A stretch of 39,983 nucleotides of DNA from Kutzneria sp. 744 (GTDB lineage: Bacteria > Actinomycetota > Actinomycetes > Mycobacteriales > Pseudonocardiaceae). Below the pieces are notes generated by a model. It made no database searches. It was given only the letters and a program-made list of their open reading frames with translations, and was not told where the DNA came from. Location of the stretch: the NCBI RefSeq assembly GCF_000568255.1, contig NZ_KK037166.1, positions 4,169,982 through 4,209,964 on the forward strand. Direction: 5' to 3'. Each line of letters begins with the position of its first letter. Position 1 is the stretch's first letter. The position numbers and the translations under genes were made by a program. Shown one piece after another: positions 29,644 through 34,729 of this stretch.

Positions 29644-30880
<1,237 letters not shown>

Positions 30881-30940: not shown

Positions 30941-31369
30941 TTATTCCCCGGGCGAGGACTCGTAGGACTCGACGACCGTCACCGGCTCCTCGGTGATCTC
31001 GCCGTCGACGATCCGGTAGGAGCGGAACTCGTGCGTGTCCGGCTCCCGGGTCGACACCAGCACGTAGTGCGCCTCCGGCTCGCCTGCGTAGGACACGTCG
31101 GTCCGCGAGGGGTATGCCTCGGTCGCGGTGTGCGAGTGGTAGACCACCGCCGGCACCTCGTCGTTGGCGTCCATCTCCCGGTACAGCCGCAGCAGGTCGC
31201 CCGACTCGAACTCGTAGAACGTGGGCGAGCGCGCGGCGTTGAGCATCGGCACAAAGCGCTCCGGCCGGTCGGCGGACGGGCCCGCGATCACCCCGCACGC
31301 CTCGTCGGGATGGTCCCGACGGGCGTGTTCGACGATGGCCTCGACCAGGTCACGGCGGATCACCAGCAC
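30941..31369 (-). CDS. mec: JAMM/MPN+ metalloprotease Mec (CysO-cysteine hydrolase)
   Basis: A 142-residue zinc peptidase that releases cysteine from the CysO-cysteine adduct. The JAMM residues are Glu23 (PDEACG), His78 and His80 (VVYHSHT), Ser88 and Asp91 (YPSRTD). It is the third enzyme of the CysO pathway, 60 bp upstream of cysO. The gap of 45 bp from the preceding DUF2017-like gene is the largest junction in the upstream part of the operon. It may also trim the Ser-Arg extension of CysO. Confidence 0.95.
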   Translation of the reverse strand: MLVIRRDLVEAIVEHARRDHPDEACGVIAGPSADRPERFVPMLNAARSPTFYEFESGDLLRLYREMDANDEVPAVVYHSHTATEAYPSRTDVSYAGEPEAHYVLVSTREPDTHEFRSYRIVDGEITEEPVTVVESYESSPGE

Positions 31370-31414: not shown

Positions 31415-31936
31415 TCAGCCGGTCAGCTGGGCGGCCAGCTCCGGCCGCAGCGCCGTGACCAGCTGCCCCTGCAGCTCGGTGAACAGCCCGGCGTTGCGCA
31501 GCCGCGGGTCGCCCGACCGGCTGTCACCGGGGGTGCCGCGCGGCACCCACACCAGCCGGGCCTGGCCCAGCACCCGGATCCAGTCGTCCACGCCGGCCAG
31601 CTGGTAGCGCACGGGGCCGCTGTCCGGGATCGACGCCAGCACGCGCCGCGCCGCCTCCAGCAGCTCCACCAGCAGGTCGTTGCCCCGGCGGTCGATGAAC
31701 TCCTGCGCCATCGGCGAGTAGTCGGACACCCGCGGCAGCAGCCGGTCCAGCAGCTCCAGCCGCTCCCGCTTGAACATGAGGCGGTCCTTGAAGCCACCGC
31801 TCTGCTGCGGCCCGTCGTCCAGGTACCGGGCCAGCGTGCCGATGCCCTCACGCAGCGCCGACACCGTGTGCTCGGTCAGGTTGAGCAGCACCTGGCTCTC
31901 GCCGACGACCACGTCGAAGCCGTGCGACCAGCTCAT
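31415..31936 (-). CDS. DUF2017-like paralogue A
   Basis: A 173-residue protein related to the conserved DUF2017 gene of this operon. Shared points are the opening strand FDVVVGESQVLLNL followed by a long helix, LLDRLLPRVSDYS, then VDDWIRVLGQARLVW and the closing helix GLFTELQGQLVTAL. It is closest to paralogue B at 32169 (FDVVVGE, VSDY, VDDWIRVLGQ all shared). ATG 31936 overlaps the stop of ClpS-like A by ATGA. The function is unknown; the constant pairing with ClpS-type genes suggests that the two act together. Confidence 0.8.
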   Translation of the reverse strand: MSWSHGFDVVVGESQVLLNLTEHTVSALREGIGTLARYLDDGPQQSGGFKDRLMFKRERLELLDRLLPRVSDYSPMAQEFIDRRGNDLLVELLEAARRVLASIPDSGPVRYQLAGVDDWIRVLGQARLVWVPRGTPGDSRSGDPRLRNAGLFTELQGQLVTALRPELAAQLTG

Positions 31937-32172
31937 GGCGTGTTCCTCTCGATCACCGGCCGCAGCCCGAAGCCGATCATTCGCGCCGCGATCACCTCGG
32001 CATCGGCCCGCGTCTCCGCCAGCCCCACCGTCGCCTGCCCCGCCAGGTTGATCTGCCTGGTCAGCGCCACCGCGTCGGCGAGCGGCAGCCCGCACACCCG
32101 GTTCAGCACGTCGGCGACGACCGCGTCCTCGCTGTGCAGGTCGTTGTACGCGACAACCCGGAACGCCGTCAT
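31933..32172 (-). CDS. ClpS-like paralogue A, diverged pocket
   Basis: A 79-residue ClpS-fold protein (FRVVAYNDLHSEDAVVADVLNRV...). It is the bare core, without the N-terminal extension that canonical ClpS uses to deliver substrates to ClpA/ClpC. The Asn-Asp pair that binds the substrate alpha-amino group is kept (N10, D11). The pocket Met position is Asp16 and the essential His position is Asn42 (RQINLAG). It may not bind normal N-degrons. It overlaps its neighbours by 4 nt on both sides. Confidence 0.82.
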   Translation of the reverse strand: MTAFRVVAYNDLHSEDAVVADVLNRVCGLPLADAVALTRQINLAGQATVGLAETRADAEVIAARMIGFGLRPVIERNTP

Positions 32173-32687
32173 GTCCACGCCACCTCCGCCAGCTCCGGCC
32201 GCACGGCCACGATCACCTGCTGCTGCATCCACGTGTACACGCCGGCGGTGCGCAGCCGGAGGTCCTCGGACTCGACGTCGCCGGCGCTGGAGCGGTGCAT
32301 CCACAGCATGCGGGTCTGGCCGAGCACACGGATCCAGTCGTCGACGGCGTCCAGCGGGTAGGTGGCCGTGCCGTCGTCGGTGATCGAGGCCAGCACCCGG
32401 TGGCAGGCGGCGAAGAGCCCGGTGCGCAGGTGCTCGCCCCAGCGGACGTCGAACTCCTCGGCCAGCGGCGCGTAGTCGGAGACCGACGGGAACAGCCGGG
32501 CCAGCAGGGCCCGCTGGGTGCGCTCGAACCGCCGCCGTTCGAGCAGGCCGCGCTTGGGCTGGGCGTGGTCGATGTATGCGGCAAGCGCGCCGATGCCACT
32601 GCGCAGCACGGGAACGACGTCCTCGCCGAGCTTGATCAGCACCTGGTTCTCGCCGACGACCACGTCGAACTCGGAGGGCTCGGTCAC
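32169..32687 (-). CDS. DUF2017-like paralogue B
   Basis: A 172-residue protein, the closest relative of paralogue A, with FDVVVGENQVLIKL, LLARLFPSVSDYAPLAEEF, HRVLASITDDG, VDDWIRVLGQTRMLW and GVYTWMQQQVIVAV. GTG 32687 overlaps the stop of ClpS-like B by GTGA; its stop overlaps ClpS-like A by ATGA. The A and B modules are therefore tandem duplicates of one clpS-DUF2017 pair that have drifted far apart. Unknown function. Confidence 0.8.
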   Translation of the reverse strand: MTEPSEFDVVVGENQVLIKLGEDVVPVLRSGIGALAAYIDHAQPKRGLLERRRFERTQRALLARLFPSVSDYAPLAEEFDVRWGEHLRTGLFAACHRVLASITDDGTATYPLDAVDDWIRVLGQTRMLWMHRSSAGDVESEDLRLRTAGVYTWMQQQVIVAVRPELAEVAWT

Positions 32688-32920
32688 CGGTTGGCCTCGA
32701 CCTTCACCCGCAGCCCGAAGCCCAGCACCTGGGCGGCCATCTGCTCGGCGGCCTCGCGGGTCGGGGTCAGGCTCACGGTGGCCCGCCCCTCGGCGTGGAT
32801 CTGCCTGGTCATCGTCACGGCCTCGGGCAGCGGGACGCCGCAGGCCCGGTTGATCACGTCCGTGACCAGCGTCATCGTGTTCAGGTTGTCGTTGAGCACG
32901 ACAACGCGGTACACGCTCAT
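32684..32920 (-). CDS. ClpS-like paralogue B
   Basis: A 78-residue ClpS-fold core (YRVVVLNDNLNTMTLVTDVINRA...). It keeps N10-D11, the pocket Met16 and His42 (RQIHAEG), but the second pocket Met of canonical ClpS is Thr38. As in paralogue A the N-terminal delivery arm is missing. It is thus the more ClpS-like of the two extra copies and could still bind N-terminal residues. ATG 32920 overlaps the stop of the S58 peptidase by ATGA. Confidence 0.85.
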   Translation of the reverse strand: MSVYRVVVLNDNLNTMTLVTDVINRACGVPLPEAVTMTRQIHAEGRATVSLTPTREAAEQMAAQVLGFGLRVKVEANR

Positions 32921-33891
32921 CTTCCCCCCAACGCCTCCGGCCAGGCGTCACGGTACGCCGGAACGGAGCCGACGGTGGTGGCCGCGAGAATCCCGTGCAC
33001 GATGGCCCGGGCGAACACCTGCGCGCCGGCCTCGCACACCCGGTCCAGCGCCATGCCCCGCACCCCCGACAGGTCCTGCCGGCCGGTGGCCAGCGCGAAG
33101 ATGGTGTCGCCGTCGTACATCGCGTGCGCCGGCCGGATGGCGCGGGCGAGGCCGTCATGGGCGACGGCGGCGATCCGCTGGCACTCGGCCTTGGTCAGCA
33201 CGGCGTCGACGGCGACGACACCGATCGTGGTGTTCAACGCGGAACGCTTGGGTCGGAATTCCACGGCCGGCGAACCGGGGACGGAAAGGCCGAACTCGCC
33301 GTCCACCTCGTGATCGACAGCCCAGGGCATGCCGGCGGGATTCACGGCTTCCCCCATGGCGTTCACGGCGGCGATGGCGCCGACGGTGAGCCCGTCGACG
33401 ACCATGCTGGCGGTGCCGATCCCGCCCTTCAAGGACCCGCACCGGGCACCGGTTCCGGCACCGACACAGCCCTGCTCCACCGGCCCGTCGGACGCCGCCT
33501 CGCACGCCGCGTACCCGAAGGAGGCGTCCGGGCGGTTGCCCCAGTCGCTCAGCTTGAGGTCGAACAGCACGGCCGACGGCACGACCGGCACCACCTCGTG
33601 CGGCAACTCCCCCACCCTGACGCCGTGGTTGCGCTCGGCCAGCCACCGCATCACGCCATCGGCGGCGGCGAGGCCGTAGGCGCTACCGCCGGTCAGACAC
33701 ACGCCGTGGATCTCCTGCACCAGGCGGGAAGGCTCCAGCACATCGGTCTCCCGCGTGCCGGGAGCGCCGCCGCGCTGGTCCACACCGGCCACCGCGCCGC
33801 CCGGGGTCAGCACCACGGTCGTGCCGGTGGCCCAGCCGTCGCCCAGCCGCTGATACTGGCCGACCAGCACGCCCGGCACGTCGGTGATCAC
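32917..33891 (-). CDS. P1/S58 (DmpA-like) peptidase, Rv1333-type
   Basis: A 324-residue Ntn-type hydrolase of the S58 family, which self-cleaves and then uses the new N-terminal residue as nucleophile to remove N-terminal amino acids from peptides or beta-peptides. The motif LNTTIGVVAVDAVLTKAEC puts the likely cut before Thr221. The glycine-rich LTGGSAYGL (66-74) and GAGTGARCGSLKGGIGTAS (144-162) are typical. GTG 33891 overlaps the DUF2017 stop by GTGA. Its place downstream of clpS is conserved in actinobacteria. Confidence 0.92.
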   Translation of the reverse strand: MITDVPGVLVGQYQRLGDGWATGTTVVLTPGGAVAGVDQRGGAPGTRETDVLEPSRLVQEIHGVCLTGGSAYGLAAADGVMRWLAERNHGVRVGELPHEVVPVVPSAVLFDLKLSDWGNRPDASFGYAACEAASDGPVEQGCVGAGTGARCGSLKGGIGTASMVVDGLTVGAIAAVNAMGEAVNPAGMPWAVDHEVDGEFGLSVPGSPAVEFRPKRSALNTTIGVVAVDAVLTKAECQRIAAVAHDGLARAIRPAHAMYDGDTIFALATGRQDLSGVRGMALDRVCEAGAQVFARAIVHGILAATTVGSVPAYRDAWPEALGGR

Positions 33892-34445
33892 GACGACACC
33901 GCGTTGACCAGGCTCTCCTGCACCCAGGTCAGCCAGTGGTAGACGCCCAGATGCGAGGACCGGGGATCGTCCTCGGGCAGCTCGTCCGGCATGTCCTCGG
34001 TGACGTCCAACGCCGTGCCCAGGGCCAGCCGCACGTCGTTGATCGCCGACAGCCACGCCTCAGCCTGCTCCACGGACAGCAGGATCTGGCCGCCGTCGGG
34101 CGGGCAGGTGTCCATCACGATCTCCGCCACGCCCGTCTTGGCCGCCAGCAGCTCCGGCTCGTGCAGACTGCGCAACGCTGCCGCCGAGTCCAGGTCCTCC
34201 TTGGTCGGCTTGTCATCGTCCAACCGGTGGAAGTCCGGCAGCAGCCGGGACAGGATCGGGTCGTCGGGGGCCGTCGAGGGCCCCACCTTGATCCCGGTCA
34301 GCTCGGCCAGCTCGTCCTCGGGCGCGTCCTGCTCGCGGGCTGCCAGCATGTCCAGCACCTGGCCCACCAGCCCACGCAGGATGGCCGCCTCCTGCCGGTC
34401 CACCTCGGCGACGAGTTGATCGCCGCGCCGCCGCCAACCCCTCAC
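33888..34445 (-). CDS. DUF2017 protein (Rv1332-type)
   Basis: A 185-residue member of DUF2017, the conserved partner of actinobacterial clpS. It has an early helix ([15 protein letters not shown]), the acidic [11 protein letters not shown], a central helical part ([29 protein letters not shown]), [14 protein letters not shown] and the closing [17 protein letters not shown]. It is longer in the middle than the two paralogues. GTG 34445 overlaps the clpS stop by 4 nt. Biochemical role unknown. Confidence 0.9.
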
Positions 34446-34729
34446 GAGTCCTGCTGCATGGTCGCCCACAGGCCGGCGGCGTGCAGTTTCGCCACGTCCG
34501 TCTCCACCTTTTCCTTGCTCCCCGAGGACACGATCGCCCGGCCCTGGTGATGCACGTCGAGCATCAGCTTGGTGGCCTTCTCCCGGCTGTAGCCGAAGAT
34601 CTTCTGGAGCACGTACGTGACGTAGGACATCAGGTTGACCGGGTCGTTCCAGACGACGGTCAGCCACGGGTTGTCCTCGCTGCCGACCTGCTCAACCTCC
34701 GGCCGCTCCTGCTCGACGGGCGTGGTCAT
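34442..34729 (-). CDS. clpS: ATP-dependent Clp protease adaptor ClpS
   Basis: The canonical 95-residue ClpS. A 20-residue flexible N-terminal arm precedes the core. Substrate-binding residues are all present: N28, D29 (VVWNDP), M34, M56 and His60 (LMLDVHHQG). It presents proteins with bulky N-terminal residues to the ClpC/ClpA unfoldase. ATG 34729 is favoured over 34801. It is the first gene of the long minus-strand operon and only 43 bp from the divergent pncB start. Confidence 0.96.

Follow-up and report, generated by a model that had tools for sequence, protein, structure and literature searches.

Divergent ClpS-DUF2017 gene pairs at the cysteine operon of Kutzneria and elsewhere in the Pseudonocardiaceae

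Gene order and family membership

What can be read from the clpS-like genes beside the cysteine operon of Kutzneria sp. 744? The window, by which we mean the whole stretch of 39,983 nucleotides analysed here (NZ_KK037166.1, positions 4,169,982 to 4,209,964; the source genome is a single contig of 11.65 Mb), carries ten minus-strand genes in the order clpS, DUF2017, S58 peptidase, clpS-like B, DUF2017-like B, clpS-like A, DUF2017-like A, mec, cysO and cysM (Table 1). In gene order and families it is like the canonical actinobacterial ClpS-DUF2017(AosR)-S58-Mec-CysO-CysM locus, to which Kutzneria adds two diverged pairs between S58 and mec that fall outside the canonical clades. The ten genes form an operon-like string, and the word "fused", used of this module in the first-pass annotation, is not to be taken as protein fusion. 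Adjacent genes overlap by 4 bp at six successive junctions, from clpS through DUF2017-like A, which makes their translational coupling probable; a gap of 45 bp then follows ahead of mec. By codon usage, our own gene caller scores all four extra open reading frames as coding.

Table 1. The ten genes of the string, in minus-strand order, with the evidence for each assignment
Gene	Coordinates	Strand	Evidence
Canonical clpS	34442..34729	-	PF02617 88.9 bits; NCBIfam ClpS equivalog NF000668 151.8 bits (cut-off 86)
Canonical DUF2017 (AosR-like)	33888..34445	-	PF09438 183.5 bits; NF051854 AosR equivalog 228.9 bits (below cut-off of 260); 4-bp overlap with clpS
S58 family peptidase	32917..33891	-	PF03576 233.7 bits
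clpS-like B	32684..32920	-	PF02617 56.6 bits; equivalents of N34, D35, M40 and H66 retained in the alignment, M62 replaced by T
DUF2017-like B (partner: clpS-like B)	32169..32687	-	PF09438 44.2 bits; no NCBIfam match at E 1
clpS-like A	31933..32172	-	PF02617 25.2 bits (cut-off 23); equivalents of M40, M62 and H66 replaced by D, T and N in the alignment
DUF2017-like A (partner: clpS-like A)	31415..31936	-	PF09438 42.0 bits; no NCBIfam match at E 1; 0 cysteines
mec (JAB peptidase)	30941..31369	-	PF14464 97.6 bits
cysO (sulfur carrier)	30602..30880	-	PF02597 66.7 bits
cysM (cysteine synthase)	29644..30594	-	PF00291 239.7 bits; cysKM subfamily 355.6 bits (cut-off 344.15)

All six ClpS and DUF2017 proteins exceed the curated Pfam cut-offs (PF02617, 23 bits; PF09438, 25 bits), ClpS-like A narrowly, and the annotated order of three clpS-DUF2017 pairs is thereby borne out. 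The NCBIfam ClpS equivalog models, with cut-offs of 86 bits or more, accept the canonical protein and reject the two extra ones, whose best scores are 14 bits (A) and 39 bits (B); a sequence search of the PDB with ClpS-like B retrieves ClpS chains. The two extra pairs resemble each other more than the canonical one: A and B are 51% identical in ClpS and 53% in DUF2017, against 30% between canonical ClpS and ClpS-like B and 23% across 120 residues (E 0.004) between canonical DUF2017 and DUF2017-like B.

A tree of 85 DUF2017 proteins resolves into clades of 27 canonical, 38 divergent and 20 unpaired sequences, and in the divergent clade 36 of the 38 adjoin a ClpS match, the other two being counted as solo. 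The split between canonical and extra copies is matched in a tree of 63 ClpS proteins; both were built quickly, with no bootstrap, and show several long branches and weakly supported inner nodes. The presence of two diverged pairs between the S58 peptidase and mec, as annotated, is confirmed. Divergent DUF2017 copies also carry class-specific residues (window numbering), with arginine at positions 94, 100, 109 and 145 in 37, 35, 41 and 32 of 44 copies, and aspartate at 130 in 35 of 44. Within Kutzneria, identical types are recovered in both trees: A (window, G005, G006), B (window, G001, G002) and C (G001, G005), with one further extra copy in G004 outside all three.

Distribution, pairing and rates of change

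A single clpS-DUF2017 pair is the usual state at the cysteine locus. Of 226 relatives found for the canonical DUF2017, the best 80 were retained as named loci, and 78 of these could be scored. The S58-mec interval holds no extra pair in 66, one in 11 and two in 1 (K. buriramensis), and the ClpS count equals the DUF2017 count at all 78. With a model built for the divergent DUF2017, matches at E 1e-12 were obtained in 82 of 390 Pseudonocardiaceae genomes, spread over 18 of 46 genera. In an order-level sample of 249 genomes, scores above 120 bits occur in Pseudonocardiaceae alone, the maximum outside the family being 63.1 bits; in a phylum sample of 396 genomes the source of the window is the sole strong scorer, followed at 67.7 bits by the next best. 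The extra pairs belong to divergent clades whose strong matches are confined, in the sampled genomes, to the Pseudonocardiaceae. Among the 19 best weaker matches outside the family, ClpS adjoins DUF2017 in all 19, and the NLM motif of canonical copies is present in all seven of these ClpS neighbours that were inspected. Since eight candidates were scored per genome in the family and phylum searches and 13 in the order search, the copy numbers given here are minimum values. At the cysteine locus, two extra pairs were found in three of seven Kutzneria genomes (the window's own, G000, with G001 and G005) and in none of the 76 other genomes with matches, and the six Kutzneria genomes with extra copies carry one or two each. 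A plasmid or phage origin was considered and set aside, as tblastn with DUF2017-like B against PLSDB and INPHARED gave no match. The arrangement is real, lineage-specific and undescribed in the literature searched, which returned no paper on DUF2017, none joining AosR and ClpS, and none joining ClpS and Pseudonocardiaceae.

The two genes behave as a unit. Across 94 genomic stretches, with ClpS and DUF2017 models built partly from copies later found, a ClpS-like gene adjoins 86 of 91 divergent DUF2017 copies; three of the five unpaired copies border masked or unsequenced runs. At most 46 of the 86 pairs overlap by 4 bp, an upper estimate in that starts, which in the relatives' loci come from our own gene caller, were picked nearest to such an overlap. 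Conversely, all 35 extra ClpS matches in 50 genomes, a set chosen mainly for more than one DUF2017 each, adjoin DUF2017-like sequence, in one case broken and in two partial. Of the 91 copies, 53 lie at the cysteine locus and 38 elsewhere (14 of these in genus g8), and 36 of the 38 are paired. The pairs outside the cysteine locus show the unit to be independent of the cysteine operon. Their neighbours offer no clue to function: none recurs across genera except large common families at varying positions, and recurring neighbours are mostly within-genus, as in g8, where 11 loci adjoin a subtilisin-like gene (read from sequence). Two unusual forms stand apart: G286 carries, away from the cysteine locus, two tandem ClpS-DUF2017 pairs (L074:9712-11292), the first ClpS being split over two frames, and in G012 (L085:1367-2179) a ClpS-like domain ends a 271-residue frame with several hydrophobic stretches, perhaps membrane-anchored if the predicted start is right.

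The partners are also inherited together, as the annotation's two-protein unit would have it. ClpS and DUF2017 distances correlate with r 0.557 over 38 pairs (maximum of 2000 permutations 0.182), four of 42 pairs having been dropped for short overlap and the permutations ignoring relatedness; given host distance, the partial r is 0.457 over 29 pairs (maximum of 2000 permutations 0.223). The nearest relative agrees between the two proteins in 25 of the 38 pairs, where shuffling gives a mean of 1.

Amino-acid change is fast in several lineages. By pairwise Nei-Gojobori estimates, the B-type DUF2017 of the window differs from that of G002 with dN 0.255 and dS 0.44 and from that of G001 with dN 0.335 and dS 0.34, against canonical DUF2017 dN of 0.029 and 0.044, respectively; A-type DUF2017 differs from its relatives with dN 0.164 and 0.094 and dS 0.23 and 0.25. 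The corresponding dN/dS in Kutzneria is about 0.6-1.0 for B-type, about 0.4-0.7 for A-type and 0.13-0.17 for canonical copies in matching genome pairs.

Pocket residues and possible roles of the pair

Why should ClpS and DUF2017 adjoin each other at all? ClpS is the known bacterial N-degron adaptor and DUF2017/AosR a known redox regulator, and the literature searched gives no reason for their adjacency. Residues N34, D35, M40, M62 and H66 (E. coli numbering), which we take to form the N-degron pocket of ClpS, are invariant in the alignment of 95 canonical ClpS (95 of 95). Extra ClpS retain N34 in 20 of 42 copies, D35 in 41, M40 in 5, M62 in 5 and H66 in 19, while E82 and G92 are retained in 41; position 84, presumably a Clp-docking position, is charged in canonical and hydrophobic in most extra ClpS. 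The four residues N34, D35, M40 and H66 occur together in a single one of the 42, copy B of the window, and in the canonical protein, not in A. The pocket is thus lost in most extra copies and, to judge from the alignment, seems largely released from selection.

Pairing at varied genomic sites, release of the pocket and joint divergence are together more easily explained by a dedicated partner pair than by general Clp adaptors. We therefore lean, tentatively and at somewhat under even odds, towards a divergent, self-standing unit of ClpS and an AosR/DUF2017-type regulator, in which each ClpS would be dedicated to its own DUF2017 as a switch. Such a unit would be related to the clpS-DUF2017 pair that is widespread in the phylum and would have spread within the Pseudonocardiaceae, mostly at the S58-mec junction. 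Each ClpS-like protein would bind its own partner and control that partner's level or activity, either through ClpC-ClpP or by simple sequestration, so that the pair would act as a switch, one member being an adaptor or anti-regulator and the other the regulator, and not as an N-end-rule adaptor of general use. Where a cell holds several diverged pairs, these might then serve as parallel, mutually insulated switches. Within the cysteine operon, the pairs are likely to be expressed together with mec-cysO-cysM and may adjust the response to thiol or sulfur stress. A bolder form of this proposal, to which we give less credence, is that in Pseudonocardiaceae the ClpS fold has turned from N-degron receptor into the dedicated partner of an AosR-like regulator of RNA polymerase or sigma factors, as a portable and fast-diversifying cassette that is duplicated and swapped, with up to three insulated versions per operon in Kutzneria. 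If true, an adaptor fold would have been repurposed to govern a transcription regulator. With a diverged pair that travels together and has mostly lost the pocket, a functional link between ClpS and DUF2017 can be tested in a genus of soil bacteria. The extra pairs are a variant of known families and no new kind of system, unless such a switch is demonstrated.

There are precedents for ClpS with a partner protein, and for a second ClpS with other preferences. According to PMC7966870, ClpF is an associate of ClpS and HspQ an inhibitor that binds it, MgtC and ClpS compete for a regulator, and ClpS1 and ClpS2 of cyanobacteria have different N-terminal preferences. The likenesses are partial: the domains of chloroplast ClpF, the partner of ClpS1 there, are UVR and YccV, not DUF2017, and cyanobacterial ClpS2 is described as an N-degron binder, whereas most extra copies here are without the pocket.

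Several points weigh against a dedicated switch. Copy B could be an ordinary N-degron adaptor because it keeps four pocket residues. Away from the cysteine locus, the nine usable pairs give r 0.60, below the permuted maximum of 0.72, and nearest relatives agree in two of nine, so that these pairs alone give no clear signal; moreover, co-inheritance without binding can arise from tight linkage alone. Beside two of the 91 divergent copies (L089, L296) no ClpS was detected, and these solo genes, with the ClpS-free DUF2017 clade, indicate that DUF2017 is not always in need of ClpS. Clp unfoldase numbers do not differ between genomes with and without extra pairs. Change is slower elsewhere, dN/dS between L068 and L069 being about 0.25 for DUF2017 (dN 0.177, dS 0.70) and 0.21 for ClpS, and dN/dS near 1 is compatible with relaxed constraint too. 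ClpI, an idea taken from PMC10149685, was tried as partner unfoldase and rejected: the mean number of AAA_lid_9 matches, worked out by hand, is 2.83 for the 41 genomes that have extra pairs and 2.82 for the 34 that lack them, and the window's genome has 2.

The first-pass annotation suggested that the extra pairs may be adaptors that send different substrates to Clp, and in this form the extra ClpS would be Clp adaptors of altered range, each docking on ClpC with DUF2017 as helper. This we consider unlikely, although membership of the ClpS sequence family is confirmed by Pfam, D35, E82 and other positions are kept, and the differing preferences of cyanobacterial ClpS1 and ClpS2 (PMC7966870) offer a parallel. 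M40, M62 and H66 are gone in more than half of the 42 copies, position 84 is hydrophobic in most, and the constant pairing with DUF2017 is left unexplained. In the N-end-rule sense the claim is weakened, the extra ClpS as a class being without most of the pocket, and fits at best copy B with its four retained residues.

Could the DUF2017 proteins be the active party? As AosR-type activators of the cysteine operon, they would carry the ClpS-like genes along by translational coupling. AosR (Rv1332), an oxidative stress regulator of M. tuberculosis, reportedly binds SigH and activates mec-cysO-cysM, and is reported to use an intrasubunit disulfide as its redox mechanism. By Pfam the window proteins share its family, and the canonical copy matches the NCBIfam AosR model, albeit below the NCBI cut-off, with A and B unmatched; their cysteines are too few for the reported disulfide (canonical 1, B 1, A 0). 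Across 99 canonical DUF2017 sequences, counted in columns of the window protein, 44 have no cysteine, 52 have one and three have two, and with 0-1 cysteine in 96 of 99 such a disulfide is hardly possible. Direct control of mec-cysO-cysM by SigH in M. tuberculosis, as given in PMC4803200, and the 53 of 91 copies at the cysteine locus would speak for activators, yet 38 copies lie elsewhere, 36 of them paired. Nor is a SigH-type promoter (GGAAY-N16-21-SGTT) conserved between the S58 start and mec: it occurs in 9 of 99 locus rows (six genomes being present in both lists), near chance by our own estimate. Three of the nine matches are from Kutzneria (window, L054, L057) and lie within the S58 gene, ahead of the extra pairs, that of the window at about 33236-33262 on the minus strand within the coding sequence. 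On balance such activators appear improbable, and the suggestion that the extra pairs regulate the sulfur-carrier system is unsupported as a general rule.

More improbable still are decaying or weakly selected duplicates without a distinct role. In their favour one could cite comparisons that give a high dN/dS, the patchy distribution (82 of 390 genomes), the DUF2017 of L084, which is broken, and the two-frame ClpS of L074; against them stand the conserved class-specific residues, the retention of pairs in 18 of 46 genera and an internal stop in just one (G131) among the matches listed.

Unpaired copies and variation at individual loci

That DUF2017 always follows a clpS, as first annotated, is false: a third class is unpaired, and the window's genome itself holds a fourth DUF2017 (G000:C1:6583101), next to which no ClpS was found. 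In L093 (10096 onward, the locus of this fourth copy), L092, L094 and L097, third-class DUF2017 is found immediately ahead of rpoB-rpoC or at a distance of one gene; the rpoB concerned is the sole one found in G000, G002, G023 and G032, and rpoC was recognised by eye. This proximity hints at a link to RNA polymerase.

The extra pairs of two group g16 (Amycolatopsis) genomes, G142 and G189 (L066, L067), differ with dS 0.72 and 0.64, against 0.04-0.24 for all eight flanking genes compared, a contrast that points to whole-pair replacement at an unchanged site or to differential loss of paralogs. Across L113-L192 the S58-mec junction, measured from one model match to the next, ranges from 55 bp to about 5.3 kb, partial S58 matches inflating some of the gaps, and in several loci it contains other apparent open reading frames. 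In L120 (JOAA01000003.1), titled Rhodococcus rhodnii, DUF2017 is 77% identical to that of the window and ranks among Pseudonocardiaceae, so the label may be wrong.

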